IMG/VR virus record: IMGVR_UViG_3300006751_000043
Location: 1 to 37,543 of that record
Reading direction: 5' to 3' (one strand)
Source of the DNA: a virus
DNA length: 37,543 bases
Positions 1 to 16,272 of the stretch are shown here, piece by piece (the first letter of the stretch is position 1; each line of letters begins with the position of its first letter). Below the pieces are notes generated by a model that worked only from the letters and a program-made list of their open reading frames with translations, made no database searches and was not told where the DNA came from. The position numbers and the translations under genes were made by a program.

Positions 1-3000
1 GTACTAAAATTATTTTTACTGTTGATGAAGATTATGATGGAGAAGTGTATGATCCTACTTCTAGTACAAAACAAACGATTTCTTGGCAAGCTCGTTTAAA
101 AGAACTTAAAGAAAAATATGGTGATAATTATAAAGAAAGTCCTGCTTATATTAGTGAAGTACCTATCGTAGCTAAAGATAGTTCAGGAAGAACATTATTT
201 TATCTTCACGATGCTAATTGGATGACTGAAGAAAATTTAGCAGGAACAGAAGAAGAAATTATTGCTGATAAAAAAGAATTACTTAATACTCGTTTACATA
301 TAGTAAAAGAAGGAGAATTAAAGAGTGAGATTACGTATAAAGGAGACGGACATCTTTTAAGAACTAAAGATAATGAAAATATTCCAGTATCAGAAGCTAT
401 GGAAGATCCTGAATTAGTTCTTGGTATAGGAAAAAATGGTGTTTTAACAACAAATAATAAAAAAATTGAAGGACAAAGTGTAAACACAACAAACCCTTCA
501 GATGGTGCAGTATATGCAGTTATTCCTATGAGTAAAGGAAAAACTATGAGAGTGCCTTTAAGTAGACAAAATTTGTCTGAAGAAGTTTCTGATTCTATAT
601 ATAATGCTATTGTTGGGCATCTTTCTGGGGAGGAGACTAATCCAATAGTAAAAGCAATATATAATGAAACAGGCTTAGATATTACTAATACTGCGGGATT
701 AAGAGAATATATATCTCAATTTATCTATTTATTTCCAACAGAAGGCCAAGAAGGTCTTGCCACTATTTTAGCAGGAAATACTAAAGAATTTACTTCTAAT
801 AATGGTATTATTACTATTACAGGTAACGGTGTAGAATTTGGAAGACCAGGAATAGGGCAACCAGGAAATAGAGTTAAAGTTTTAAGTCAAAATTTTACGG
901 AAAATAATGCTTCAAATCTATTAGCACTAAAAAAATTCTTATCTAAATATGTTAAAACTAATGCAGATGCAAAAAGTCTTAATGCAAATAAACCAGTAGT
1001 ATTAGTAAATAATAAAGGAGAAACAAATACTGTAGCTTCTTATACTGAGTTTGTAAAAACACAATTTCAAACTAATGTTTTTTCTGTTAATATAGGTACT
1101 GAAAGTAATCCTAATTGGATATATACTATACAACCTAGAATTATGTTTAGTACTGAAAATGTTGATAAATCTAAAATAATACCTGTAATAAAATCTGATG
1201 TAGAATATGAAGTATCAGAAGAAGCTATTAAAAAAGATAAAGATAAAAAAACTACAGCTAAAAAAGAAAAACAAAGATTTGATGATTGGCAGGTTCCAAT
1301 TAAAAAAGAAGAGTTTATAGTAACTGATAAAGATGGAGATTCTCAAATATTTACAGCTACAACAAAATTAGATGGAACGATTACATGGACAAGAAAAGGA
1401 ATTAAAGAAGGAGATGTACATCAACCTGCTGATATAGGCATGATTGGAATAAATAGTGCAAGAGAAGCCTTAAATACTTTTGAAGAAAGTGGACAAACAG
1501 TTGAAGTAGGAAAAGTTGAAGGTTATCAAACAATTATGAATCCTAAAAAGTGGAATGGATTAACCCAAGAACAAAAAGAAAGAGTAGATCCTAAAAGAGC
1601 AGCAAAAGAAAAACCAACACAACAAACTAGTGAGGTTGAAGTTTTAAGTAAGAGAGAATTGTCAGATAAAGAATTACAAGATATTCTTACTCCTGATAGT
1701 TATGTAAGAAGTATAGGGCAAGAAGGATTAGAGGATGCTTTAAAGTCAGGTGTAATTAGACCTTCTGGCACTAAAACAGGTAAAGCTAAGTATAAAGGCA
1801 CTTTTTATGGTGTAGGACAAAAAGGACTAGCACGTGCATTAGATTACGCAGGTAAAACTAAAAATGGAGTTCTTGTAGTGCTTAAAAAAAGTGACTTTAA
1901 AGAAAAGTTTGGAGACACTCCTGGCACAATGGACGCTAAAACAAGAGAACAAGTTGCTATAACTAAAGCAAAAGTTTTAATGTTTGATGATACTACTCAA
2001 AAAGTGTATTTATTAGAGCTATATCAACCAACACAACAAAGTAGTAAAAAAGGTCCTGAAATTCAAAATTTAGAAGATATAGTAAATGAACTTACAGAGG
2101 ACCCTTTATCAAAAAAAGCAGAAAACTTAATAGAAGAAGGAGCTACTCTTGAACAATTAAAAAATATATTAAAGAATATAGAAGATAGTGGGGAAGAGGT
2201 AAGTGAAGAAGATCTTAATGCTGTTAAACAAGCTATAAAAGCTATAGAATCTAAACAACCAACAATAACTGTTAGAGACCAAGAAATTACAGGTGATATA
2301 GAAGATAGTTCAGATAATGAAGATATGTTTGTGCCTAATTTAGAAGAATTAGGAATTAGTACTATACAAGATTCTGAAGTTATTGTATTAGATGGAGTAT
2401 CTCCTCAAGAAACTGAAGATCTTATTCAATTTATTTCTAAAAATATTTTCGAAGCATTAGAAAAAAATAGAATAGAAGGTAAAGAAGGAAAAATTGATAC
2501 TTTAAAAATATTTAAAGAACTTGAAGAAGAGTTTAAAAGATTACGTAAAGAGACTAAAGAGGCTAATATGCCTAATAGAACGGCACGAATAGATAATCTT
2601 TTAACACAATTTGATAAAATAAAAATACTAACTAACGAGTATATTTCTTTATTAAAAACTGGAAGAGTATCTGAAGCTAATGCTGATGAAGTTGCTGGAG
2701 AATTAGAAAAAACAAATTTCTCTGATGAAGCTACTATTAGTTTAGATTCTAAATCAACTGCTTCCGCACAATTAAGAGCATTTTTTGGATTTACTCCAAT
2801 AGTAGACTCAAAAGGAGTAGAAATATTAAACGCATTTTTAATTCCTAAAACAGCAAGTTTTGATGTTGTATATAATACTCTTCATGAATTATTAGCAAAT
2901 CAACCTGCTGATTTTGATATATTAATTCAAACAATGGAAAAAGCACAAGATACTTTTCCTTGGATGAAACCTATTATTGAAAAACTTAAGAATGCTGATA

Positions 3001-6000
3001 AGAGTATTCAGAATGAGTTTGTTTCTGATATGACAAAACATGCTATTACTATGCAATTGTTACTTTGGAAAAGAACTAAAAACGGTGGATACAGACTAAT
3101 GAATATAGATGCCAATGCCGCTTCTATACAAGCAAGGTTATTAGGAATGTGGCAATCTAATTTTAAAGGAAATACTTCACAAATATATACAGAAGGATTA
3201 AGTTCTAATTTAGTAACTATAGACCCTGATTCAGGTAATTATATTTTTAATGAAGAAATAGCGACTGACCTTAAAAAAATGGCTCTGAAATGGGAAAAAA
3301 TGTCTGAAACAGATCGTAAAAATATACCTGTAGAAGATTTAGCAGTATGGTTAGGAAATTTTGGTATAGTCCTTTCTGATAATACTTATAAAGCATTAAA
3401 AGATGGAAAATATTACAATAATAGAAAAATCTCTTACTCCAATTTATTTACTAATAATAATGGTTTAGTAAAAGTTCTTGCCAAAAAATTAAAATCTGTA
3501 GGAAGTAATACTGACATAAGTACTTTAAATTTATTTAGAGATAATGTTATTAAAGCATTAGCAAAATTAGATAGTAGATATCAAGAGAATTCTTATAGTA
3601 ATTCTTTTAATGCTGGTGGAAAAACTTTATATACTTATACTAATAATAAATATCTTGTTAATAGAATGAGAGATTTATTATCTGTTGATAATATTTTAGC
3701 AAATAAATTAAAAGAAATTAGTTTTACAAAAGATAGTTTATGGTTAAATGAATTATTAGCAGATGATGCTTTTAGTGAATCTTTACGAAGTCGTTTAGGA
3801 GTTAATTATTTATCTTTAGAAGCCCTTAAAGAATTATTCACTCCTTCACAAGATAATAGAAAATTAAATAATCTTACTCCTGCAGAACAAGAAGTTATTA
3901 AACTGGGACTTTTTCAAAGTCAAAGTCATGAAGATATTGGAAACAAACGAAAAGTAAGTTATTTTTATCCTACTATGTCTGATAAAAGTACTATGATGAC
4001 TATTGATGGATTTGCTTATAAAATAGGTTGGAAAGATGGTGTCATAGATGAAGACTCTTTAGAATTATTATATACGGCTATAATACTTCCTGAAATTAAT
4101 AGAATAGCAACTAGTAAGACTAATTCTGGTTTATCAAACTATGAACCTAATTATTTTTATTTTCTCCCTTCTTTAAATAATTTAAAAATTGGAGGAGAGT
4201 TTGTTAGAGACTTAGCTATTGATAATAAAATAATAGGTGGTGATAAAAATATAAAAATTCAAATAGTAAAACATCTTAAAGAAACTTTTGAAGGACTTGT
4301 ATCAGAAAAATTAGAAGATTGGAATAATTTAGGATTAGGCAAATATGATCCAAAAACTAAAAAGTTTAGTTTTATGGATGAAAAATATATTGATAAAAAT
4401 ACAGTAGGATTAGGAGAAGATAAAAGAACTTATGCAGCTGCAGATTTTGTATTTAATAGCTTAATAGCTAATGCTGAAATGTTTAAATTATTTATAGGAG
4501 ATCCTGCTCAATATGCTAAAAACATAACAATCAATGAAGATGGTATTGTAAACTTAGAAGAAACTTTTATAAATATTGGTAAACGTCTTGCAGGAGATAT
4601 AGCTCCAGGTCTTGAATTAGCTAATAGTTCTAAAAACCATTATTATCAAGTATTTTTAAAGGACTTTGTAACTAGTAGTAAAAATATAGAATATTTAAAG
4701 AAATTATCTGAAGAAGGTTTACTTACTGAAGAAGAATTAGGTGAATATGAAAATATTAAAACTACAGATGCTCAAGAATATACTACTTGGCAAGAACATT
4801 TATATGTTTTAAAACAATTAGGAAGATTAACAACTAAAGAATATAAAGATTTATATACTACACTTAATAAAGGTCTTAAATTAGGAAAAGAAGATTTAGG
4901 TAAAATAATGCAACCTATGAAACCTGTATATGTAGGTAATCAAATAGATGCAGAAAATAATCTTGATAGACGTATTTATATTAAATCTTCTAGTTTTCCT
5001 TTATTACCACAATTAACTGCAGGTTTAGAAATTGATAAACTTAGAGTAGCATTAGAAAATTTCCAAGAGTCTGTAAAAGATAATAAGTCTTTAGATAATA
5101 CCTCACCATTTGTACGAGCTTCTTTTGCTACAGCTAATAAAGTAGGAGGAATTAAAAATGGTATAGAAGTATTTGATAAAGATGGAAATGTTAATGATAA
5201 TATAGAAATAACAGAAAAAGAGGCTTTATTATTATCAAGAGCTAATTTTAGAATACAACAAGATGTTCCTTATAAAGAAAGTAAAAAAGAAATTAATAGG
5301 GCAACACAACCAAGTAAATTATTATTTTTAAATATTTTAGATACGCAAGGATTTACTTTACCTAATTCTGATAAAGAATATTCAGGTAAACAATTGCAAG
5401 AAATATATGAGAATCTTCATATAGAAATATTTCATCATAAATATAATGAATTTACAAAACAATTTAATATTGAAAATGGAAGAATACCAGTTAAAGAGAT
5501 TCAAAAACTTTTAATAAGAGAAATTAATAACCGAGAAGGATATCCTTTAAATATGATTGCTGCTCTTACTCTTAATGAAGAAGGTACTGATTTTAAAATT
5601 CCATTATGGGCTTCTCCATATTCTGCAAAATTTGAAAGTTTATTAAATGCAACTATTACTAATAAAATAGTTAAACAAGAAACATCAGGATTTTCTAGTG
5701 TTTTAGGAGCAGAGGAAGGTTTTAGATTGAAAGAAGGGCCAAAAGCCATTGAAGAACTAAGAAAAGGAGGAGTTATATTTACTGAAAATTTTAATCCTAA
5801 AGAAGGACTATTACCAATGCGACCTGATGGAAAAGGAGGAATGTTACCTGCACAAATTATAGTTCCTTTTAAATTTAGAGATCAAGATGGTGATTTATTA
5901 CCTATAGAAACTTTTTTAACTTTAGACAGAAGTGCAGATAAACAAACAGCAAATGAATTAAAGATATTAAGAAAAAAATTATCTGATTTACAACAGAAGC

Positions 6001-9000
6001 GACAAGCAGATAGAGAATATACTACTACTAAAGAAGAAAAAGAACTTATAGATAAAATTGATACACTTGCTAGAAAATTAGTATCAGGTGCTGTTATAAA
6101 CACTAAAAGATTACCTACAGAATTATTACAATTATTTGGTTTTCGTATTCCTACTCAAGGTCCTAATTCTACTGCGGCTATAGAAATAGTAGGATTTTTG
6201 CCTAAAGAATCAGGAGATTTAGTATTAGCACCTAGAGATTTTATAGCACAAATGGGTTCTGATTTTGATGTTGATAAACTTTATTCTTATATGTATAATA
6301 CATATTATGAAAATGGTTATTTAAAGAAAGATTTTCTAAAAAGTGAATTAGCAATTAATAAAAGATTAGAAGAAACTACAGCAGAAATTGAATCTTTGTT
6401 AGAAGAATTAGGATTAGATAAAGAAGCTAAAAAAGAGTCTTTAGAATTTTTTAAAGATAAAGAAGCATATTTAGAAGCTAATAAACATTTACTATCAGAT
6501 GATGATAAGGTAAAAGCTAGTAAAATATTAAAAAAATTACAACAAAAAGGAAAAAAGAAACAAGATACTATTACAGAAAAAATTACAGAAATTTATGAAA
6601 AATTAGATAAATTAAATACTGAACAAGATATTTTAAAACGCTCTTATTTAGCATCTCGACAAAATGAACTTTTAGATATTCATAGAGCTGTATTAATGAA
6701 TGATACTCCTACTGTTGTTAAAGGTATATTTAAACCTGATTCTTTTGGGGATCTTCCAAAATTAGCAAAACGATTATCTAATATAACCACAGATACTACT
6801 GCATCTATATTATCAGATATTTATCAAAGAAATAGATATTTAAATGGTGTAGCTGGTACTATTGGAACAGGTGCATTTTCTATTGATTCTACTTTTAATG
6901 CAGTAGCACAAGGAAAAGAATTAGTATTTTTTCAACATCCTGATATAAGTGCTGAAGGCCTTTCTTATACTGAAATATTAGCAGAGAATAAATTTGTTAT
7001 GCGTTTTGGTACTAATATTTCTAGAGGTGATTTATCTAATCCAGAAACTCTTTCAGGAGAAGAATTAAAATCTAATATAATAACAGCTTTTCAATCAGCA
7101 TCTGTAGATAATGCAAATGCAGGATTATTATCACAATTGAATACTAATGCAGAAACTTTTGAAGCAATAAAAGCATTAGCATTATTAGGATTTGATTCGA
7201 AAGATATAATAGGATTAATTAATCAACCAATAATAGTTGAGTATATAAATTCTCTTAAAGAGGCCTCTTCTTCTTTACAAGAATTTACTGCTAATGTTGA
7301 GTATGAAGTAAAAGAGGGATTAAGAAATAAATATGATCCTGAAGGACGTTATATTTCTTTAAATGAAAAAGAAACTAAAGTATTTAAAGATAGAGCAGAT
7401 ATGTCTGGTGAAGAACTATTAAAATTAATAGAATCAAAACCATTAAAAGAAATTATTCCTACAGAATCTATTAATAAAGAAGGACAAAAAATATTAAATA
7501 TTCCTGCAACTTCTGATAATAATTTAGTTCAATTAGTATTATTAGATAAATTTTTAGAAACAGTAAGAATAGGAGGAGAAATTAGATTACTTCAAAGTAC
7601 AATTAATGTTGACTCTAAAGGTGTTCCTTCTTCTATGATAGAAAATGCTGATAAAGTAAAACAAATAGATAAATTAGGAACTAGTCCTATTGCCAATGCT
7701 ATTAATCTTTTAGGAGAATATGATAAAGGGTCTTGGAATAAATCTTTAACAACTCCAACTACATTATTAGGAGCTGCTTCTTTTTATGGTGCAATGGCCG
7801 CTAATAACTTATTTAGTTCTTATTTCCCTTTTAATAAAAAAGGATTTGATCAACAAATTGAGGCTATTATTAATCATAAAGCAGAAAATAGAGCAAACTT
7901 AACTCCTGCTAAAGTAGTAATTATTAAAAAAAGAGTATTTGAAAATATGAAAGCATATTTTTATAGTAATGAAGCTACTAATTTATTTACTGAAAATGTA
8001 CAAAAAGAACGCTCTAGGTTATTTATAGATACAAAAACTAATAAATCACTTGCTACTATACTTAATAATTTTTCAACTAAAAAATGGTTTAGAGAAAATC
8101 AATTTTTGAATAAATTAAATTTTGATATAAATTCTAATGGAGAATTATCAAGAATAGAATTTGAATCTTCTACAGGAGAAAATCTTAATGAAAGATTAAT
8201 ATATACTCATTTCCAAAAAATGTTAAACTCTACTAAAAGTATAGGTAATATTAATGGTTTCGAATATACATTCCAAAAACTTGCTCAAGATATAATTTTA
8301 GCAGCATTCTTAGATGGAGGAATACAAAAAGCAAAACAATATGTAAAATATATACCTACTTCTTATTTACAGTCTTTGAATTTTGGTGAAGTATTAAATG
8401 AAACTTCTTTTGATCCTGTTAAAACTTTTAATTCTAATGTTACGGCTAATGGAAAAGAAATATTCTCACAACCTTCAAGATTTGTTCGTCAATATTTTCA
8501 AAATAATCCACAAGAAGTTGTTAATGCATCTATAGAAGATATTAAATTAAACAGTAAAAATATTAATACAGTTACTGAATTTAGTATTAAAAAAGGTGAA
8601 CATGCTAAATATTCAACTATAATAGGAGGAGAAATGACTCCTTTCCATTTTTTATCTGTATATGATAAAGATTTAGCTAGTAAAGGTAGTAATTTTGCAC
8701 TTTTCGAATATGATTATTCTTCTAATTCTTATAAAAGAATTGTAGTTTTAAAAGGTAATTTTGATTTCAAACAGTATAATAATTTAGCTCCTATAAATGA
8801 TGCAATACAAAGAAGAAATAATTTTGGAAATAAAGAAACAATAGATACACTTGATCCTACGAACACTAATCCTAATCAAACAGAAGATATAAATCAAGAA
8901 GATAAACTTACAGAATTTACTTATGAAGCTGTAAATAATCCTAAAGAAAATCGTACTGAATTATTAGGAAAATTAAAAATTAATAATAAATTAAAAGGAG

Positions 9001-10556
9001 AAGAATTACTACGAGATATTCTAGAAGGATTAACTTTATCAAATAATGTTTCTAAATACAATAAAGAATTAATTAGACTATTTAGTAAAATTGAATTGCC
9101 TTCAGAATTCACTCTTAATATAATTGATGATATTAAATTAGGTAAAGGGAGTTATAATAGTAAAACTAAAAAATTATTTTTAAATAAAGCAAAACTTAAA
9201 GAAGTAAGTAATGATGAATTAGCTACAACTATTTTACATGAACTTACTCATACTTTCACTTCTCCTATAATTAAAAAATGGGCAGCAAAAGATTATTCTT
9301 CTTTAACAAAAGAACAAAAAGCTACTATCGCTCGTCTAAATGGTAATAGACTTAAATATATTAAAGCATTAAAAAATACAGAAGGTGTTGAAGGATTAGC
9401 TAATTTTTGGGAATCATATCTTAATTGGAGATTAGCAAATAAAAGTCTTACTGTAGCAGAACATGCTAAAATGTTAAAAGAAGGAGTTCCAGGAATTGGA
9501 AAAATTGATAATTTTATTAGTACAGGAAAAAACCTTACTCAAGAAATGGTTAATAAATTCTATGGAGCTATTAATGTTCAAGAATTTGTAGCAATGGCTC
9601 TTACAGAACCTGACTTTCAAAAGAAATTAAATGAAATAACTGATACAGATGGAAAACCATTTTTAAGTAAAATTATAGATCTTTTAATGGATTTATTAAA
9701 AAGTATAGGAATAACTGTAGACCCTAATTCTTTATTAGCAAATACTTTAGAAGATACGATGGCTCTTATTAATATAAGTAATAATACTATAAAAGGACAA
9801 GAAGCCACACCAACCACTCAACCAGCACAACAAACTAGTGGGGTTAAAGAAGGTTTGTCAGAACTATTTGAAGCTAAACCTGAACTAGCCAATATTGGTG
9901 ATCAAAAACAATATTCTAAATATTTAGATACTATATTTCCTGATAGTCCAAATAAAAAAATACTATATCATATTGGAGGAAAAAACATTCAAAAGTTTGA
10001 TAAAGAAAAATTTGGAAAAGGAGAAGGAACAAACGCTTCTGGATTAGGAATTTATTTTCAGGAATCTGTTTATGAAATAATGGCAGGAGGAATAGGTCAA
10101 GATTATTTTTACGAATCCCCCACTCCAGTAAAATCTATACTCAAAGACGGACTTTTAACTTTAGCTATTGCTAATATTAAACCTGAAGATAAGTTTAACC
10201 CTAATTCAAAAGTTCCACAAGAAGTTATTATTAGAGATGTAGATAGAATACACGTATTAGGCTCTAAACAAGATATACAAGGATTTAAAGATTTTGTAGG
10301 TAAATCAACACAACAAAGTAAAGATACTTCTACTAGTTTATTAACTTCTTTAGGAGAAACTAATAAAGATAATGTAAGTCCTGACTTTTTAATAGATGCA
10401 GATGCTTTAACAGATTACTTAAATCAATTACCTTCTACTAAAGGAATTTCAGATAGAGTTAGTAGTGGTAAAACAATTTCTGACTTAGGAATTACGAAAG
10501 ATGAGTGGAATAGTCTATCTTTGTCTGAGCAAGAAACTATAAAAAAATGTAATTAA
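1..10556 (+). CDS. Giant virion RNA polymerase polyprotein with zincin and ART-like modules (5' end outside window)
   Basis: The frame is open from base 3, so the GTG at 45 is probably not the start and the gene enters from the left. Numbering from codon 45 (3503 residues): an ART-like module at about 533-660; a KPVY motif (K1626) that may mark the first double-psi barrel; D2073-F-D2075-V-D2077-K, the metal-binding DxDxD signature of the second barrel in crAss-like and QDE-1-type RNA polymerases; a conserved-looking helical part after it (about 2350-2410); HELTH at 3065-3069 with possible third ligand E3180, a zincin metallopeptidase signature; and a C-terminal ART-like module with candidate triad H3309, Y3337, E3393. 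By analogy with phage phi14:2 it would be packaged, injected and transcribe early genes; the protease may process the polyprotein (inference). Long Lys/Glu-rich helices link the domains. RNA polymerase identity is firm, module functions are inferred. Confidence 0.9.
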   Translation, partial: TKIIFTVDEDYDGEVYDPTSSTKQTISWQARLKELKEKYGDNYKESPAYISEVPIVAKDSSGRTLFYLHDANWMTEENLAGTEEEIIADKKELLNTRLHIVKEGELKSEITYKGDGHLLRTKDNENIPVSEAMEDPELVLGIGKNGVLTTNNKKIEGQSVNTTNPSDGAVYAVIPMSKGKTMRVPLSRQNLSEEVSDSIYNAIVGHLSGEETNPIVKAIYNETGLDITNTAGLREYISQFIYLFPTEGQEGLATILAGNTKEFTSNNGIITITGNGVEFGRPGIGQPGNRVKVLSQNFTENNASNLLALKKFLSKYVKTNADAKSLNANKPVVLVNNKGETNTVASYTEFVKTQFQTNVFSVNIGTESNPNWIYTIQPRIMFSTENVDKSKIIPVIKSDVEYEVSEEAIKKDKDKKTTAKKEKQRFDDWQVPIKKEEFIVTDKDGDSQIFTATTKLDGTITWTRKGIKEGDVHQPADIGMIGINSAREALNTFEESGQTVEVGKVEGYQTIMNPKKWNGLTQEQKERVDPKRAAKEKPTQQTSEVEVLSKRELSDKELQDILTPDSYVRSIGQEGLEDALKSGVIRPSGTKTGKAKYKGTFYGVGQKGLARALDYAGKTKNGVLVVLKKSDFKEKFGDTPGTMDAKTREQVAITKAKVLMFDDTTQKVYLLELYQPTQQSSKKGPEIQNLEDIVNELTEDPLSKKAENLIEEGATLEQLKNILKNIEDSGEEVSEEDLNAVKQAIKAIESKQPTITVRDQEITGDIEDSSDNEDMFVPNLEELGISTIQDSEVIVLDGVSPQETEDLIQFISKNIFEALEKNRIEGKEGKIDTLKIFKELEEEFKRLRKETKEANMPNRTARIDNLLTQFDKIKILTNEYISLLKTGRVSEANADEVAGELEKTNFSDEATISLDSKSTASAQLRAFFGFTPIVDSKGVEILNAFLIPKTASFDVVYNTLHELLANQPADFDILIQTMEKAQDTFPWMKPIIEKLKNADKSIQNEFVSDMTKHAITMQLLLWKRTKNGGYRLMNIDANAASIQARLLGMWQSNFKGNTSQIYTEGLSSNLVTIDPDSGNYIFNEEIATDLKKMALKWEKMSETDRKNIPVEDLAVWLGNFGIVLSDNTYKALKDGKYYNNRKISYSNLFTNNNGLVKVLAKKLKSVGSNTDISTLNLFRDNVIKALAKLDSRYQENSYSNSFNAGGKTLYTYTNNKYLVNRMRDLLSVDNILANKLKEISFTKDSLWLNELLADDAFSESLRSRLGVNYLSLEALKELFTPSQDNRKLNNLTPAEQEVIKLGLFQSQSHEDIGNKRKVSYFYPTMSDKSTMMTIDGFAYKIGWKDGVIDEDSLELLYTAIILPEINRIATSKTNSGLSNYEPNYFYFLPSLNNLKIGGEFVRDLAIDNKIIGGDKNIKIQIVKHLKETFEGLVSEKLEDWNNLGLGKYDPKTKKFSFMDEKYIDKNTVGLGEDKRTYAAADFVFNSLIANAEMFKLFIGDPAQYAKNITINEDGIVNLEETFINIGKRLAGDIAPGLELANSSKNHYYQVFLKDFVTSSKNIEYLKKLSEEGLLTEEELGEYENIKTTDAQEYTTWQEHLYVLKQLGRLTTKEYKDLYTTLNKGLKLGKEDLGKIMQPMKPVYVGNQIDAENNLDRRIYIKSSSFPLLPQLTAGLEIDKLRVALENFQESVKDNKSLDNTSPFVRASFATANKVGGIKNGIEVFDKDGNVNDNIEITEKEALLLSRANFRIQQDVPYKESKKEINRATQPSKLLFLNILDTQGFTLPNSDKEYSGKQLQEIYENLHIEIFHHKYNEFTKQFNIENGRIPVKEIQKLLIREINNREGYPLNMIAALTLNEEGTDFKIPLWASPYSAKFESLLNATITNKIVKQETSGFSSVLGAEEGFRLKEGPKAIEELRKGGVIFTENFNPKEGLLPMRPDGKGGMLPAQIIVPFKFRDQDGDLLPIETFLTLDRSADKQTANELKILRKKLSDLQQKRQADREYTTTKEEKELIDKIDTLARKLVSGAVINTKRLPTELLQLFGFRIPTQGPNSTAAIEIVGFLPKESGDLVLAPRDFIAQMGSDFDVDKLYSYMYNTYYENGYLKKDFLKSELAINKRLEETTAEIESLLEELGLDKEAKKESLEFFKDKEAYLEANKHLLSDDDKVKASKILKKLQQKGKKKQDTITEKITEIYEKLDKLNTEQDILKRSYLASRQNELLDIHRAVLMNDTPTVVKGIFKPDSFGDLPKLAKRLSNITTDTTASILSDIYQRNRYLNGVAGTIGTGAFSIDSTFNAVAQGKELVFFQHPDISAEGLSYTEILAENKFVMRFGTNISRGDLSNPETLSGEELKSNIITAFQSASVDNANAGLLSQLNTNAETFEAIKALALLGFDSKDIIGLINQPIIVEYINSLKEASSSLQEFTANVEYEVKEGLRNKYDPEGRYISLNEKETKVFKDRADMSGEELLKLIESKPLKEIIPTESINKEGQKILNIPATSDNNLVQLVLLDKFLETVRIGGEIRLLQSTINVDSKGVPSSMIENADKVKQIDKLGTSPIANAINLLGEYDKGSWNKSLTTPTTLLGAASFYGAMAANNLFSSYFPFNKKGFDQQIEAIINHKAENRANLTPAKVVIIKKRVFENMKAYFYSNEATNLFTENVQKERSRLFIDTKTNKSLATILNNFSTKKWFRENQFLNKLNFDINSNGELSRIEFESSTGENLNERLIYTHFQKMLNSTKSIGNINGFEYTFQKLAQDIILAAFLDGGIQKAKQYVKYIPTSYLQSLNFGEVLNETSFDPVKTFNSNVTANGKEIFSQPSRFVRQYFQNNPQEVVNASIEDIKLNSKNINTVTEFSIKKGEHAKYSTIIGGEMTPFHFLSVYDKDLASKGSNFALFEYDYSSNSYKRIVVLKGNFDFKQYNNLAPINDAIQRRNNFGNKETIDTLDPTNTNPNQTEDINQEDKLTEFTYEAVNNPKENRTELLGKLKINNKLKGEELLRDILEGLTLSNNVSKYNKELIRLFSKIELPSEFTLNIIDDIKLGKGSYNSKTKKLFLNKAKLKEVSNDELATTILHELTHTFTSPIIKKWAAKDYSSLTKEQKATIARLNGNRLKYIKALKNTEGVEGLANFWESYLNWRLANKSLTVAEHAKMLKEGVPGIGKIDNFISTGKNLTQEMVNKFYGAINVQEFVAMALTEPDFQKKLNEITDTDGKPFLSKIIDLLMDLLKSIGITVDPNSLLANTLEDTMALINISNNTIKGQEATPTTQPAQQTSGVKEGLSELFEAKPELANIGDQKQYSKYLDTIFPDSPNKKILYHIGGKNIQKFDKEKFGKGEGTNASGLGIYFQESVYEIMAGGIGQDYFYESPTPVKSILKDGLLTLAIANIKPEDKFNPNSKVPQEVIIRDVDRIHVLGSKQDIQGFKDFVGKSTQQSKDTSTSLLTSLGETNKDNVSPDFLIDADALTDYLNQLPSTKGISDRVSSGKTISDLGITKDEWNSLSLSEQETIKKCN
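1613..1641 (+). repeat. Linker repeat copy 1 (left edge of first ART-like module)
   Basis: This DNA encodes a PTQQTSEVE linker inside the giant polymerase gene. It shares the core ACACAACAAACTAGTG and the following (A/G)GGTT(G/A)AAG with the copy at 9821, which is the left edge of the second ART-like module. The match is at DNA as well as protein level. Confidence 0.7.
2024..2045 (+). repeat. Linker repeat copy 2 (right edge of first ART-like module)
   Basis: It encodes a QPTQQSSKK linker and shares TCAACACAACAAAGTA-type sequence (here TCAACCAACACAACAAAGTA) with the copy at 10305. The AAAGTA variant marks right edges, while the AAACTAGTG variant marks left edges. Confidence 0.65.
9821..9848 (+). 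repeat. Linker repeat copy 3 (left edge of C-terminal ART-like module)
   Basis: It encodes a PAQQTSGVK linker and nearly repeats the copy at 1613: ACCAGCACAACAAACTAGTG followed by GGGTTAAAG. It lies between the HExxH region and the C-terminal ART-like module. Confidence 0.7.
10305..10320 (+). repeat. Linker repeat copy 4 (right edge of C-terminal ART-like module)
   Basis: TCAACACAACAAAGTA encodes the STQQS linker just after the C-terminal ART-like module. It matches the right-edge copy at 2024-2045 over the ACACAACAAAGTA core. Confidence 0.6.
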
Positions 10557-10557
10557 T

Positions 10558-13500
10558 ATGGCACAATGTTTAAATAAATCACTTCCAGAATTTCAGAAAT
10601 TAACAAAAGAAACAGGTTGGAATCCTTTTATTCTTGAAGCAAAGATTGTTTCTTGGCAAACAGAGAATAATAATTTACAAGATTTTCCTACCATAGAGGA
10701 ATTACTATCTAGTAAAGCTCAAATTCAGTATAGATTAAAAGCTGTTAATATATTATTATCAGATAAAGCTAAACAAGTATTTACTAAAGGAGAAAAGAAT
10801 GGTTGGAATTTAAATAAGATTCTTACAGAACTACAAGTATCAAAAGGTCAAAAGAAAATTATATTAGATAAAGATATAACTAATAGAGAAGAAATTATAA
10901 CATCTTTATTAGCTGATAATAGTTTTGTTGTTGAAGTTAATACTGCTACTAAAGAAAATTATATTAATTATGGAGGGGATTTGGTTCTTGGAAAAAATGA
11001 TATCGTAACTGTTGATGGATATTCTGATAAATATAAAGTCATAGATGAAGAGGGTAAAAACTTATATACCTTGCAGCCATTAGAAAACGAATATGACCCA
11101 GAAACTAATCCCAATGGAGTAAAACCATTATTTAATATACATACTGATTTAATAAATATTAATGATAAAACACCTACTCAACATTATGCCAATCTAACAG
11201 TACCAGGAGGTACTAACTACACAGAAAATGAGATATCTACACCTGCAATTAAACCTAATATTAAAGGACATGCACAATTTAGCACTGATGAAGGTATAGG
11301 TTGGTTTAGGAGTGATGATAAATATGGTAGTAAAACTCGTAGAGTATTAGAAGTACAATCTGATTTATTTCAGAAAGGTAGAGATAAGAAAGGTTTAATC
11401 AAACCTAAATTAGATTTATCTAAAGAAGACCAGCAAAGGTTTTTTATAGGTGATGTTAAATATGAAGCTAAAATATCTATAAATGAAGATACAGGTGAAA
11501 CAAATGAATATTATGTAAAATCTAAAGTAGATAATACTCAAGAGATAGATTTTTGGGGTACTAATCCTAAAACTGTAAAAGAAGAAACCATTAGTAAACA
11601 AGAATATGAAAAACAATATCAATCTTTAGCTAAGGATGAAGAGTTAAACAAACAAAACCAATTTCTACAATTACTAAACAAAAAAGGTAATTGGGTTAAT
11701 TTCTTCATACAATCTATAGTACAAGATAGTATTAAAAAAGGTTATGAGAAAGTATTATTCCCTACAGGTGAAACTGCTGCTAAAGTAGAAGGGCATGAAA
11801 CTATTGCTGATGAGATTAGAGGTATTAATAATCAATTAGCTAATTTAGAAAAAATATTAGCGCAAAAAGATTATAAAAATTTTACTATAAATTCTTATAA
11901 TTATCAAATACAAAAAAATAAATATTATAAAGGTGAAAATGATGATCCTTTTGGAGCTTTATCACCTATAAATAAAGCTGAATATGATAAAGCTTTTGCG
12001 AGAGATCATTTTAAAAATGAAAAAGTAAAATTAGAAGCTGAAAAACAAGAAATGAAATCTCAAGGTATTGAGAAACTTAAACCTATAGAAGCTTTTTATA
12101 CTAATAAAGTTACTAATATTCTTAATAAATTATATGATGTAAAAAAAGTTACTGATGAACAGGGTAATACTTGGAATGAAGTAGATTTATCTTCTTCAAA
12201 AACTTTTTCAAAGGCTTTTCAAATAGATTTTTCTATAGATGCAGATGATCTAAATGCTCATCTTAAAACTAAAGAATGGAAAAAATTCTCTAAACAAGTA
12301 GGTGAAAAATTAGCTCACATAACATATACTATGGAAGGCGGTAAAATTCCTAATATTAAAACAGCTACTGAAATAAAAAAAGGAATAGGTTTTCAGAAAC
12401 ATGTTGAAAATTTTGGACCATTAAGTGGGAGAATTGCTAAATATAATAGTATTAATAATACTTCACATTCTTTTACTAAGAAACTTGCTTGGGGAAATAC
12501 TTGGGAAATAACTATGCGATATAATTATTTACCTGTTAATCAAGAAAAGAAAAGACAAAGAAATGCGAAACTTTCTGAAATTTTTAGAGTAGAGGAATTA
12601 GATGGGCCTATTGTTAGAGAAACACCTCTTAAAGATATTCAACAATCTTTATTCGAAGATACTGATTTTTTAATTGATGCTGCTTCTTCAGAAGTAGAAG
12701 CTGTTACTACTCAAAAATTAAAAGCATTAAAGACTAGGTATAATGAGATAAAAGATAAACTAGCTAAAGTTACTACTATTAGTGAGTCAAAAATATTACA
12801 AACACAAAAAAATACTATAGAAAGGCTTATAGAAAAAACTAAAGTTAGTAAAGTAAAAGCATCTACTATAGAAAATTTTGAAGGGGTATTAGAAATGGCT
12901 GATGAACAATTAGCAGAATTAGAAAAAGTATTAGAACAACCTATAATTAGTTACTCTGATATTTTATATGGATTACGAGCAGCTGATTTATGGATAGTAG
13001 CAGGAGATAATACTAAAGAGCCTGGACGACATATTTTATTAGATGAAGAAGAGCGAGATACTCCTGAGATTATTAATGCTTTTTCTTTACGTAGAATTAA
13101 AGCTGAAGAAATTCAAAGAAGATTATTAATACTTGCTAGGGAGCAAATGACAACTTTTGTTAGAAAATATACTAATGAAAATTTAACGAAAGAAGAAATT
13201 TTTAAAAATCTTAAAGATATTAATAAAGTACATTCTCTTACTTTAAATTTAAGTAGAACAGAAGATGCTTTACTACAAAGTATTATGGGAGCAGTAGAAA
13301 CTGCTAATATATTAGCAAAAAAAGAAGCAGATAAAATTTGGAAAGGTTTAGATTCTTTAGGAGATAAAGTAATTAAAAAATTAAACAATTATAATAAATT
13401 TAAACAATTAACTAAAGACGGTAAAGAAACTGGAAAATTAGTTAATAGATTTTCTGATGAGTTTTTTAAAGTGCGTGCTAATCTTATTAATAAAGCATTT

Positions 13501-16272
13501 CATCAAAGAGATGCATCAGGAGCACAAGTATATAAAAAACAAAATATAGATGAGTATTACAATTGGATAGATAATAATACTATCAATATGGATGTTAGAT
13601 TATTATTTGAAGATAGTTTTTTAGAAGATTCTCAAGTTCCTAATGAATTTTTATATAAAAGAGTTATTAAAAGTGAAAAACAAAAAGAAGCTCATATAAC
13701 AACATTAAAATCACATTTAGGAGAAAAAGGTTTTGAGAAGTATATGGATATGCTTGAAAAGAAACTTAAGAAATGGAAATTACAAAGAGATGTAATGTGG
13801 TCAAAGATTACGACTTCTGAACTTTCTTTAGAAGAACAAAAAACATTATTTGAAGAATGGAATAAAGAACATTCTCCTTATTGGGGATTAGATATGGCAG
13901 AAAATCCTGCTATGAGAAAAAAATCTGATGGGATATCCTACTATATACCTAAAGGTATTTATGAATATACTTATCAAATACCTAAAAAATTCGGTAAAAA
14001 CGGTAGTGAAACTGCATGGTATGATAAGAATTTTGAAGAAATAGAAGCCAATGAAGATTTATTAGCCTTTCATGAATTAATTACTAATACTTTATATGAA
14101 TTAAAATATATTTTTCCTGAAAGTAAACAAAATTTACTTGGAATTAATATTCTTCCTACTATTCAGAAAAGCCTAATGGATCAGTTTAGTGAAAAAGGTA
14201 TGATGATGGGAGTAATTCCTTTTTGGGATAAAATGAAATCTTTAGTTACTACTTCAGATTTAGCAGAAATAGATCATAGTGATCAAAATCCTAGAACAGG
14301 TCTTAGAGAAAAACAAATAGCAACACAATTTATAGCTGATACTAATGCTCAAGTTTTAGATATTGTTAAAACAAAAATTATTGAATTTGAACAAAATAAT
14401 GGAAAAAAACCTACTATTGAGCAAATAAATGCTTTTAAAGAAGATGCAAAAGATTATTTATCTAAACAAAAATCTTGGGATTTAGTAAAAATAATGAAAG
14501 CATATTCTATGATGGGATTAGCTTTTAAACATAAAAGTTTTATAGAACCTCAAATTAAATTAGCAGAACAATTATTTAATAATAAAAAACAAATAGTAGA
14601 AAATAAAGGGGGAATAGCAAAAAGAAGAAATAATGAAACTGAAGAGATAATTACTGAAGATGGTTTAGCAAACTATAAAGGAATGTTAAGGTTTTATTTA
14701 GATTCAGAATATTATGGTATAGGAGCACGTAAAGTAGAAGGAGTCTCTAAAAAGAAATTATACTCTTCGGAAGAAAATAAAAGAAAACTTGAATTAGAAC
14801 AATTATTACAAGGAGCTGTTACTGAAGAACAAAAAGAATTTTTACAAAAAGAAATAGATGGTTTAGGAAGTGTAGTAACAGGAAGTGGCGTAGGAGATGC
14901 TGCTCTTAAATTTATGACTTATAAAGGATTAGGGTGGAATGTTTTTTCAGCATTTTCTAATATAGGTTTTGGAGTAATTTCTAATATTATAGAAAGTGCT
15001 GATGGTAGAAATTATACTGGAGAACAGATGAGAAAGGCGTATTTACTTACTCTAAATTCAGTAGGAAAAAATCTTTCAGAATATATTCCAGGAATGAAAT
15101 CTTGGAAAGGTGTTGATGGAGCTGCTTTAAAAATAAGAACTTTAATGGATCAATGGGATTTATTAAAAACTTCTAATCAAGAACTCTATGACTTAAGTAG
15201 TAAATCTTCTTTTAGTAAAGGTATTGCTAAATTTGGTCCTATGACTCTTCAAGAGCGTTCTGAGTATTTAAATTATGCTCCTACTATGATAGCAGTAATG
15301 ATGAATTTAAAAGCAAAAGATGCTGACGGCAATGAAGTAAATGTTTGGGAAGCATATGATGTTGAGGGTAATCTAAAAGAAGAATATACTTTACCAGGTC
15401 CTGAAACAGATTTAGTAAGAAAGATTAGAAGAGTGATAGAAATGAATCATGGTGATTATAATAATCCTTTAAAAGCTAAGGAAACTTTTATGGGAAGAGC
15501 GCTTTCTCAATTTCGTACTTGGATGTTCGAAGGATTTGCCAATAGATTTGAAGAATATAAACCTGATTATGCTCTTAGTTATGGAAGTGATGAAGTATAT
15601 GAAAGAAAAGGAAGATATAGAAGTTATAGTCAAGGACAACTAGCAACTACAGGAGCAGTAGTAGGTTCAACAATATTACCAGGAATTGGTACTTTAATAG
15701 GAGGAGGTGTAGGATATCTTGCAGGAATGGCTTTTGGAATAAAATCAGAACAAAGTGGTATTTCTGATGTTTTATTTACTCTTAAACAATTAGTTAGAAA
15801 ATTAGCATTTAAAGATACTCAATTTGGTGATCGTTTTACTAAATTAGATGCTGCTAATATGCGTAAAAACATGACAGAATTATATATGTATGTTGCATTA
15901 TATGGAATTGCTTTATTATTAAGAGCAGTATTAATAGATGATGATGATGAAGAAGGTAAAAAATCATTTATAGCTAATTTTTTATTAAATCAAACTACTA
16001 GATTGCAAACAGATATAGGCTTTTATACTAATCCTTTAGAATTTAAGAAACTTACTAAAACTGCTGTGCCTTTAGCACAATTAATAGAAGATGTTGCAGT
16101 TTTTGCTGGAGATGTAGGTAGTTTCTTTGATGATGATGACAAAAATGATGTCTTCCGTGGGGGACCTTTTAAAGGAGAGAGTAAAGGTTTAGTACATTTT
16201 GGACAAATATTACCTGGAACTTCTCAAGCAATTAGGCTATATAGAACAGGAAGTACTGTATTCGATAAATAA
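10558..16272 (+). CDS. Giant virion polyprotein with polyvalent-protein domain and glycine-rich membrane segment
   Basis: This 1904-residue protein starts 1 base after the stop of the polymerase gene, so the two are very likely co-transcribed. Residues about 215-420 hold a pattern I know from phage large polyvalent proteins: a PGGTNY segment, then VLEVQSDLFQKGR (263-275), then a stretch around VLFPTGETAAKVEG. Long coiled-coil-like Lys/Glu-rich regions fill the middle. Near the C terminus there is a glycine-zipper hydrophobic segment (TILPGIGTLIGGGVGYLAG) and a second hydrophobic helix (LYMYVALYGIALLLRAVLI) followed by an acidic DDDDEEG. In crAss-like phages such giant proteins next to the polymerase are virion cargo. 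Membrane insertion during DNA ejection would fit the hydrophobic segments but is inference. No catalytic motif for RNA polymerase is seen here. Confidence 0.8.
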   Translation: MAQCLNKSLPEFQKLTKETGWNPFILEAKIVSWQTENNNLQDFPTIEELLSSKAQIQYRLKAVNILLSDKAKQVFTKGEKNGWNLNKILTELQVSKGQKKIILDKDITNREEIITSLLADNSFVVEVNTATKENYINYGGDLVLGKNDIVTVDGYSDKYKVIDEEGKNLYTLQPLENEYDPETNPNGVKPLFNIHTDLININDKTPTQHYANLTVPGGTNYTENEISTPAIKPNIKGHAQFSTDEGIGWFRSDDKYGSKTRRVLEVQSDLFQKGRDKKGLIKPKLDLSKEDQQRFFIGDVKYEAKISINEDTGETNEYYVKSKVDNTQEIDFWGTNPKTVKEETISKQEYEKQYQSLAKDEELNKQNQFLQLLNKKGNWVNFFIQSIVQDSIKKGYEKVLFPTGETAAKVEGHETIADEIRGINNQLANLEKILAQKDYKNFTINSYNYQIQKNKYYKGENDDPFGALSPINKAEYDKAFARDHFKNEKVKLEAEKQEMKSQGIEKLKPIEAFYTNKVTNILNKLYDVKKVTDEQGNTWNEVDLSSSKTFSKAFQIDFSIDADDLNAHLKTKEWKKFSKQVGEKLAHITYTMEGGKIPNIKTATEIKKGIGFQKHVENFGPLSGRIAKYNSINNTSHSFTKKLAWGNTWEITMRYNYLPVNQEKKRQRNAKLSEIFRVEELDGPIVRETPLKDIQQSLFEDTDFLIDAASSEVEAVTTQKLKALKTRYNEIKDKLAKVTTISESKILQTQKNTIERLIEKTKVSKVKASTIENFEGVLEMADEQLAELEKVLEQPIISYSDILYGLRAADLWIVAGDNTKEPGRHILLDEEERDTPEIINAFSLRRIKAEEIQRRLLILAREQMTTFVRKYTNENLTKEEIFKNLKDINKVHSLTLNLSRTEDALLQSIMGAVETANILAKKEADKIWKGLDSLGDKVIKKLNNYNKFKQLTKDGKETGKLVNRFSDEFFKVRANLINKAFHQRDASGAQVYKKQNIDEYYNWIDNNTINMDVRLLFEDSFLEDSQVPNEFLYKRVIKSEKQKEAHITTLKSHLGEKGFEKYMDMLEKKLKKWKLQRDVMWSKITTSELSLEEQKTLFEEWNKEHSPYWGLDMAENPAMRKKSDGISYYIPKGIYEYTYQIPKKFGKNGSETAWYDKNFEEIEANEDLLAFHELITNTLYELKYIFPESKQNLLGINILPTIQKSLMDQFSEKGMMMGVIPFWDKMKSLVTTSDLAEIDHSDQNPRTGLREKQIATQFIADTNAQVLDIVKTKIIEFEQNNGKKPTIEQINAFKEDAKDYLSKQKSWDLVKIMKAYSMMGLAFKHKSFIEPQIKLAEQLFNNKKQIVENKGGIAKRRNNETEEIITEDGLANYKGMLRFYLDSEYYGIGARKVEGVSKKKLYSSEENKRKLELEQLLQGAVTEEQKEFLQKEIDGLGSVVTGSGVGDAALKFMTYKGLGWNVFSAFSNIGFGVISNIIESADGRNYTGEQMRKAYLLTLNSVGKNLSEYIPGMKSWKGVDGAALKIRTLMDQWDLLKTSNQELYDLSSKSSFSKGIAKFGPMTLQERSEYLNYAPTMIAVMMNLKAKDADGNEVNVWEAYDVEGNLKEEYTLPGPETDLVRKIRRVIEMNHGDYNNPLKAKETFMGRALSQFRTWMFEGFANRFEEYKPDYALSYGSDEVYERKGRYRSYSQGQLATTGAVVGSTILPGIGTLIGGGVGYLAGMAFGIKSEQSGISDVLFTLKQLVRKLAFKDTQFGDRFTKLDAANMRKNMTELYMYVALYGIALLLRAVLIDDDDEEGKKSFIANFLLNQTTRLQTDIGFYTNPLEFKKLTKTAVPLAQLIEDVAVFAGDVGSFFDDDDKNDVFRGGPFKGESKGLVHFGQILPGTSQAIRLYRTGSTVFDK

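Follow-up and report, generated by a model that had tools for sequence, protein, structure and literature searches.

Probable in-frame exchange of effector modules at short DNA joints in the giant virion transcription proteins of crAss-like phages

A giant polymerase gene and its bracketed modules

The window, by which we mean the whole stretch of 37,543 nucleotides analysed here, is a 37.5-kb virus record (IMG/VR IMGVR_UViG_3300006751_000043) which opens inside a giant ORF at 3-10556, on the plus strand like the motifs, linkers, anchors and modules mapped within it. The 5′ end of this ORF is cut by the window, which therefore holds the 3′ part of an RNA polymerase gene (PHROG 16227, E 3.5e-136). 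The missing 5′ part is supplied by IMGVR_UViG_3300025096_000039, a record that is 99.96% identical to the window and carries the complete ORF of 4439 aa (L003:5597-18916). The catalytic motif DFDVDK (DxDxD) lies at 6261-6278 (L003 nt 14621 corresponds to window 6261), and the Flavobacterium phages FpV4 and Fpv1 cover 65% of a query made of ORF residues 1-2999, at 28% identity. Given its giant size and its DxDxD motif, this ORF is a crAss-like phage virion RNA polymerase. The RNA polymerase of phi14:2 is carried in the virion and is active on early genes, according to the passage of PMC7886860 in which this work is cited, and by analogy the protein of the window phage may likewise be carried in the virion and injected. 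Further along the ORF, upstream of the second of the two modules considered here, there is a putative zincin metallopeptidase motif, HELTH, with a sub-threshold SprT-like match (9126-9260; E 7.6e-4). The next giant ORF (10558-16272, 1904 aa) is without a clear Pfam match. The motif DF[LS]IDAD[AD]L / DFLIDAASS occurs once at the C-terminus of the polymerase ORF (10383-10410) and twice in this neighbour (12226-12253 and 12664-12691), and it may be a further shared element of these giant proteins. Parts of the same neighbour, at 11146-12175, are 77-93% identical in DNA to phage L009, whose neighbouring polymerase gene has no match; this is possibly a further mosaic segment.

Four linkers lie within the polymerase ORF. 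The first, PTQQTSEVEV (1612-1641; DNA CCAACACAACAAACTAGTGAGGTTGAAG), recurs in other crAss-like phages and precedes a module of 128 aa (module 1, 1641-2024), which is followed by PTQQSS (2026-2045; DNA CCAACACAACAAAGTAG), also found in other phages. PAQQTSGVKEG (9820-9849; DNA GCACAACAAACTAGTGGGGTTAAAG) and STQQSK (10305-10322) stand on either side of module 2. A sequence-only reading of the window had described four P(T/A)QQ(T/S)S linkers bracketing two modules and had taken their shared DNA as a sign of exchange. All four are indeed in frame (PTQQTS starting at 1614, PTQQSS at 2028, PAQQTS at 9822 and STQQSK at 10305), but the formula is slightly too strict for the last of them. The common DNA is present as described, with AACAAACTAGTGRGGTT in the left-edge pair and AACACAACAAAGTA in the right-edge pair. 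The exact 10-mer ACACAACAAA has four copies (at 484, 1617, 2031 and 10308) where 0.1 are expected, and the linker at 9822 carries GCACAACAAA in its place. The copy at 484-493 is out of linker register and reads NTTNPS; it is not a linker and is probably there by chance. The match was said to exceed what the amino acids require, and under random redrawing of codons at the frequencies of this gene the left pair attained its actual identity in 0.8% of draws, the right pair in 2.8% and both together in 0.04% (P ~4e-4). Repeated 14-18-mers are no more numerous across the gene than in codon-shuffled versions of it, and a repeat content this ordinary was not taken as proof by itself. Judged from the window, the excess of linker DNA identity is therefore modest and suggestive; it becomes decisive across IMG/VR, as set out below.

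Module 2 forms the body of a cassette, with a type A head anchor (GLSELFEAKPELANIGDQKQYSKYLDTIFPDS, 9852-9947), an ADP-ribosyltransferase-like body of predicted PARP/ART fold (9948-10250) and a tail anchor (HVLGSKQDIQGFKDFV, 10251-10298) whose core, AAACAAGATATACAAGGATTTAAA, lies at 10266-10289. An AlphaFold (AF2) model made from an alignment of 40 cassettes (pLDDT 79, pTM 0.75) predicts the head and tail as confident helices. All of its top 41 Foldseek matches are PARP/ART catalytic domains, the best at E 4.6e-3 and probability 0.96 with a TM of only 0.35, which is supportive, not strong, evidence for an ADP-ribosyltransferase (PARP/ART) fold. The module of the window itself has no match in Pfam, including ART-PolyVal (PF18760); a sibling cassette with the same head and tail (L115) matches ART-PolyVal at 2e-12, and the cassette alignment (A1) contains YH and GIYF as candidate ART active-site residues. 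For module 1, the single-sequence model is poor (pLDDT 52), and none of the 50 best PDB hits of a Foldseek search with it, uninformative at that pLDDT, is an ART. The claim that both bracketed modules are ART-like is supported for module 2, by its predicted fold and the profile match of its sibling, and is not established for module 1. Used as a query, module 1 found its own contig only, plus 32 aligned residues in L133, where a short module 1-like stretch (FYRQIGKEGYEDAIKSGLIR; 5139-5234) sits in a protein on a contig that bears two tail motifs.

In cultured phages, searched by megablast with the gene and by tblastn with each module, there were no hits for the modules, and a cassette of the module 2 type was not found there; a consensus cassette query against cultured phages and plasmids gave weak ART-like matches only. 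A genome collection yielded 15 stretches, six of which appear genuine from their context (L122, L124, L126, L127, L131 and L133). Their bins are labelled Rickettsiales, Spirochaetales, Bacteroidia, a Nitrososphaeraceae archaeon and Patescibacteria, and these MAG contigs are most likely misbinned phage contigs.

Joint DNA and module turnover in other phages

Homologues of module 2 are 26-34% identical overall, and their ends share 34-46 nt of DNA at 92-100%, around YSQYLDT in the head and KQDIEGFK (KQDI[EQ]GFK) in the tail. The proposal that linkers are the exchange sites is supported in a broader form: PTQQ is one of several linker types, and the stronger anchors of module 2 are its head and tail. 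A fully degenerate DNA pattern for KQDI[EQ]GFK found 111 stretches, with 109 coding matches in phage ORFs, and what stands upstream of the tail is an ART module of one of many kinds, a non-ART module or a short module-free unit. With duplicates removed, 96 loci are left; the tail has all eight consensus codons in 57 of them, where the codon usage of the individual ORFs predicts 5.9. Codon homozygosity is far above codon usage in the head (YSQYLDTIFPDS), the tail and the TQPSTS linker, and SKVKDIVY and EPEQIHILG have a codon excess too; for the head, SKVKDIVY, EPEQIHILG and TQPSTS the excess was counted in loci not fetched through them. The control polymerase motif G.DFD[IV]DK, taken from the same phages, has a codon homozygosity equal to expectation, with no excess. 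Anchor and linker DNA is conserved beyond codon usage. Close kinship cannot explain the identity of the anchor DNA, since the polymerase core found in 44 of 49 tail-bearing records is merely 29-55% identical to that of the window (own contig excluded). In seven pairs of loci the same module body has different heads, with identity of 25-41% upstream of YSQYL and 82-93% from YSQYL onward.

Several modules at these joints can be named by profile, among them NADAR (9e-16), a P-loop kinase of the AAA_33/Zeta_toxin type (2e-17) and a 2OG-Fe(II) oxygenase (1e-7), while the SLOG-like and Macro-like labels used here were given by eye only. In L082, L014 and L043 the kinase match is found where the ART would normally stand, with the same head and tail around it. 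There are also 'empty' units, about 30 codons long, that run directly from head B into the tail (QQKQQAQQLYSQYL..TG-KQDIEGFK); they occur in unrelated protein contexts in L012, L025, L069, L070, L079, L089 and L109.

The linkers behave in the same manner. Scanning IMG/VR with the left-edge linker DNA CAACAAACTAGTGNNGTTNAAG gave 20 stretches, all in the same reading frame. Some 12 other crAss-like phages contain this DNA, with unrelated flanks on both sides; at least eight other contigs are identical to the left-edge linker of the window over about 27 nt with both flanks unrelated, and 10 of 15 checked records bearing the linker have a crAss-like polymerase core. The right-edge linker gave 19 stretches and 20 copies, all in frame as PTQQSS, in about 15 other crAss-like phages with unrelated sequence on either side. 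It precedes NADAR-like sequence in L238 and SLOG-like sequence in L230 (both domains named by eye), and in L233 a single ORF contains it twice, at a distance of 570 nt. A sister linker, CAACCATCTACTAGTGTTAA (QPSTSV), occurs in 29 stretches, all in frame, and joins NADAR, SLOG-like, AlkB-like, ART and P-loop modules. In phage G046, four near-identical copies of it bracket three modules of about 150-160 aa each, an array confirmed in a second assembly. Pattern matches in L208/L210/L212/L215 and L239 sit in unrelated proteins and were discounted. Identical linker DNA thus stands between unrelated modules in different phages, and the proposed search for the linker beside other effector domains has been positive for many unrelated modules in other crAss-like phages. 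The observation made in the window generalises, with several near-identical copies of its own linker in each genome.

Phages whose polymerase genes show 97-99.9% identity differ in whole modules that have been gained, lost or replaced, in frame, between the anchors. G014 and G067 are 99.90% identical over the 12,715 nt before the variable site and 98.6% after it, and G014 has an extra module of 1,137 nt (379 codons) between two tail copies that is absent in G067. G012 and G065 share 12,820 nt at 99.76% identity, then diverge at a TTQPST linker and rejoin at the tail; the replaced block, of about 1.6-1.7 kb, holds NADAR and one ART in the former against a SLOG-like module and another ART in the latter. 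G014 and G080 differ in their module sets between a TTQP linker, which follows a SLOG-like module, and PTIQEEDMK. Elsewhere one side of a joint is kept and the other is not, as in L039/L112 (left side 99.3% over 291 nt, right side unrelated) and L060/L120 (right side 100% over 300 nt, left side unrelated). Modules are therefore swapped, gained and lost at joints, and the check for presence, absence or replacement of whole modules between them is positive in near-identical phages, not at the locus of the window. At the linkers of the window itself no swap could be observed, the near-identical contig being the one close relative found, and a relative with the same linker pair and other content at this locus was not found. 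All exchange data are metagenomic, and the variant contigs G065, G067 and G080 end about 150-400 nt past the joint, which is expected for strain branches yet is a reason for caution.

Probable exchange at joints and the rival explanations

Taken together, these data make it quite probable, in our view, that in crAss-like phages the giant virion transcription proteins are mosaics whose effector modules are exchanged in frame from phage to phage at a few short DNA joints. Near-identical phage pairs and linkers between unrelated modules both support the idea, first suggested for the window, that modules are exchanged by recombination, in so far as sequence comparison can speak to it. The joints would be P/T/Q/S-rich linkers (PTQQ[TS]S, TQPSTSV), to which the ART cassettes would add a head (YSQYLDTIFPDSKVKDIVYH) and a tail (FEPEQIHILGSKQDIEGFKEFV). 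In a cell infected by two related phages, strand annealing or homologous recombination at a joint, across 12-60 nt of near-identity, would connect the module of one phage to the scaffold of the other, and the fusion would stay open, as the reading frame of the joint is constant. Repeated exchange would hold the joint DNA near-identical while its surroundings diverge, and each genome would build up multiple copies of its own linker. It is probable that the modules (ART, NADAR, SLOG-like, AlkB-like, P-loop kinase, peptidases) are co-injected as effectors against NAD/ADP-ribose-based defence or macromolecules of the host. The recombination during co-infection, the injection of the proteins and this anti-defence role are what we infer. 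The linkers may additionally be hinges or cleavage sites.

At several swap joints the exact match is no longer than 6-12 nt, a length that speaks for annealing or template switching rather than RecA, and no consistent phage recombinase was found: ERF in none of 42 records, RecT above cut-off in none of 26, and RecA in only 2 of 26. These two points, the short exact homology and the want of a consistent recombinase, count against the recombination reading. Possible routes are host RecA, a divergent annealing protein and replication template switching. In G042, the record of L073, a RecA homologue at 1135-2739 matches the profile in two separate pieces inside a single frame of 647 aa, which suggests an intein or insertion.

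Four other explanations were weighed, and all rank below recombination at the joints. A dedicated recombinase acting on the joints as recognition sites, as in integron or invertase cassettes, would account for short conserved DNA, precise in-frame joints and their reuse by unrelated modules, and although we consider it improbable it is the best placed of the four. Against it, the tyrosine integrase profile PF00589 matches none of 26 large records when all 14 of 14 control genomes score; several unrelated anchor sequences fill the same role; and breakpoints vary inside an anchor whose identity is imperfect. A little less probable is a constraint that acts on the protein only, the amino acids being needed as hinges, protease sites or packaging signals and AT-rich codon bias mimicking DNA identity. 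The predicted helices of the cassette head and tail, the P/T/Q-rich composition of the linkers and the P of just ~4e-4 from the window alone all agree with this, but it does not fit the roughly tenfold excess of anchor codons over the ORFs' own usage or the left/right mosaic structure of the loci, and it is already contradicted by the active-site motif of the polymerase, which lacks such an excess in the same phages.

Some loci might instead record a mobile in-frame element, an 'empty' unit of about 90 nt (QQKQQAQQLYSQYL[DE]xTG-KQDIEGFKEFV) that inserts in phage genes and is entered by ART bodies later. The seven empty loci have unrelated upstream sequence, and L069 and L079 match exactly over the 46 nt that precede the tail and are unrelated outside; however, most cassettes use head A, which has no sequence relation to head B, and deletion between head and tail explains the empty units equally well, so that we rate this explanation lower again. 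Lowest of all we place an assembly artefact, in which short repeats common to co-occurring phages led assemblers to join different genomes. The joints are short repeats, and some variant contigs end just past one, but the 6-12 nt of exact identity at several of them is below the usual k-mer sizes, many swaps lie far inside contigs, every joint keeps the reading frame, and independent assemblies of different data sets contain the same joints (L041/L061/L083/L102; L021/L103; L080/L121).

Exchange at the joints, our preferred reading, would give a concrete and testable answer to how crAss-like phages diversify virion-delivered proteins, namely by whole-domain swaps at short connectors, and it points to a way in which these viruses could renew their anti-host repertoire. 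The connectors AAACAAGATATAGAAGGATTTAAA, CAACCATCTACTAGTGTTAA and CCAACACAACAAACTAGTGAGGTT could serve as sequence tags with which to mine metagenomes for new phage effectors, because anything between two connectors is a module by definition, and the rate and minimal homology of protein-domain shuffling would become measurable. A bolder version, which we regard as rather doubtful but worth stating, is that the joints are a maintained exchange system, with selection keeping a shared 'standard' of short in-frame connectors across a large group of crAss-like phages. Were it true, any effector module could be plugged into any virion transcription protein, and there would be a common pool of protein domains resembling gene cassettes, possibly served by an unrecognised recombinase.

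Relation to known systems

The domains of the modules, the parallel with polymorphic toxins and phage domain shuffling in general are already known; what is new is the exchange joints in crAss-like virion transcription proteins, which are not described in the searched text of the papers considered here. The nearest counterparts in architecture are the polyvalent proteins (Iyer et al., 2017; PMC5512222), giant multidomain phage proteins with ART-PolyVal, peptidase and other effector domains. In that paper, such proteins of phages and conjugative elements are thought to enter the host, and recombined cassettes are raised for kinase-bearing loci; its searched text contains no crAss-like phages, linkers or DNA-level joints, whereas joints and swaps are both seen here. 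Similarly, in the C-terminal cassette exchange of polymorphic toxins (Zhang et al., 2012; PMC3482391) effector domains recombine onto a constant protein at a conserved boundary, and variable effectors on a constant protein at such a boundary are what we find. The modules differ in their position, which is internal to a virion polymerase or at one of its ends, and in being bracketed on both sides and set in arrays. Recent exchange of protein fragments between phages has been described as domain shuffling (Smug et al., 2023; PMC10684548), in a paper whose searched text has no crAss-like phages or linker DNA, in contrast to the defined and reusable DNA joints reported here. Viral ART, NADAR, SLOG and Macro domains are known as anti-host factors that are virion-borne or act early (Iyer et al., 2022; PMC9503650). 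In that survey, phage NADAR, Macro and SLOG are reported as typically standalone, whereas several are fused here in one virion transcription protein. Finally, the relaxed recombination of Rad52-like recombinases (De Paepe et al., 2014; PMC3945230) produces mosaics at short, imperfect identity much like those at our joints, although the Erf/RecT family is not consistently found in the crAss-like phages studied here.
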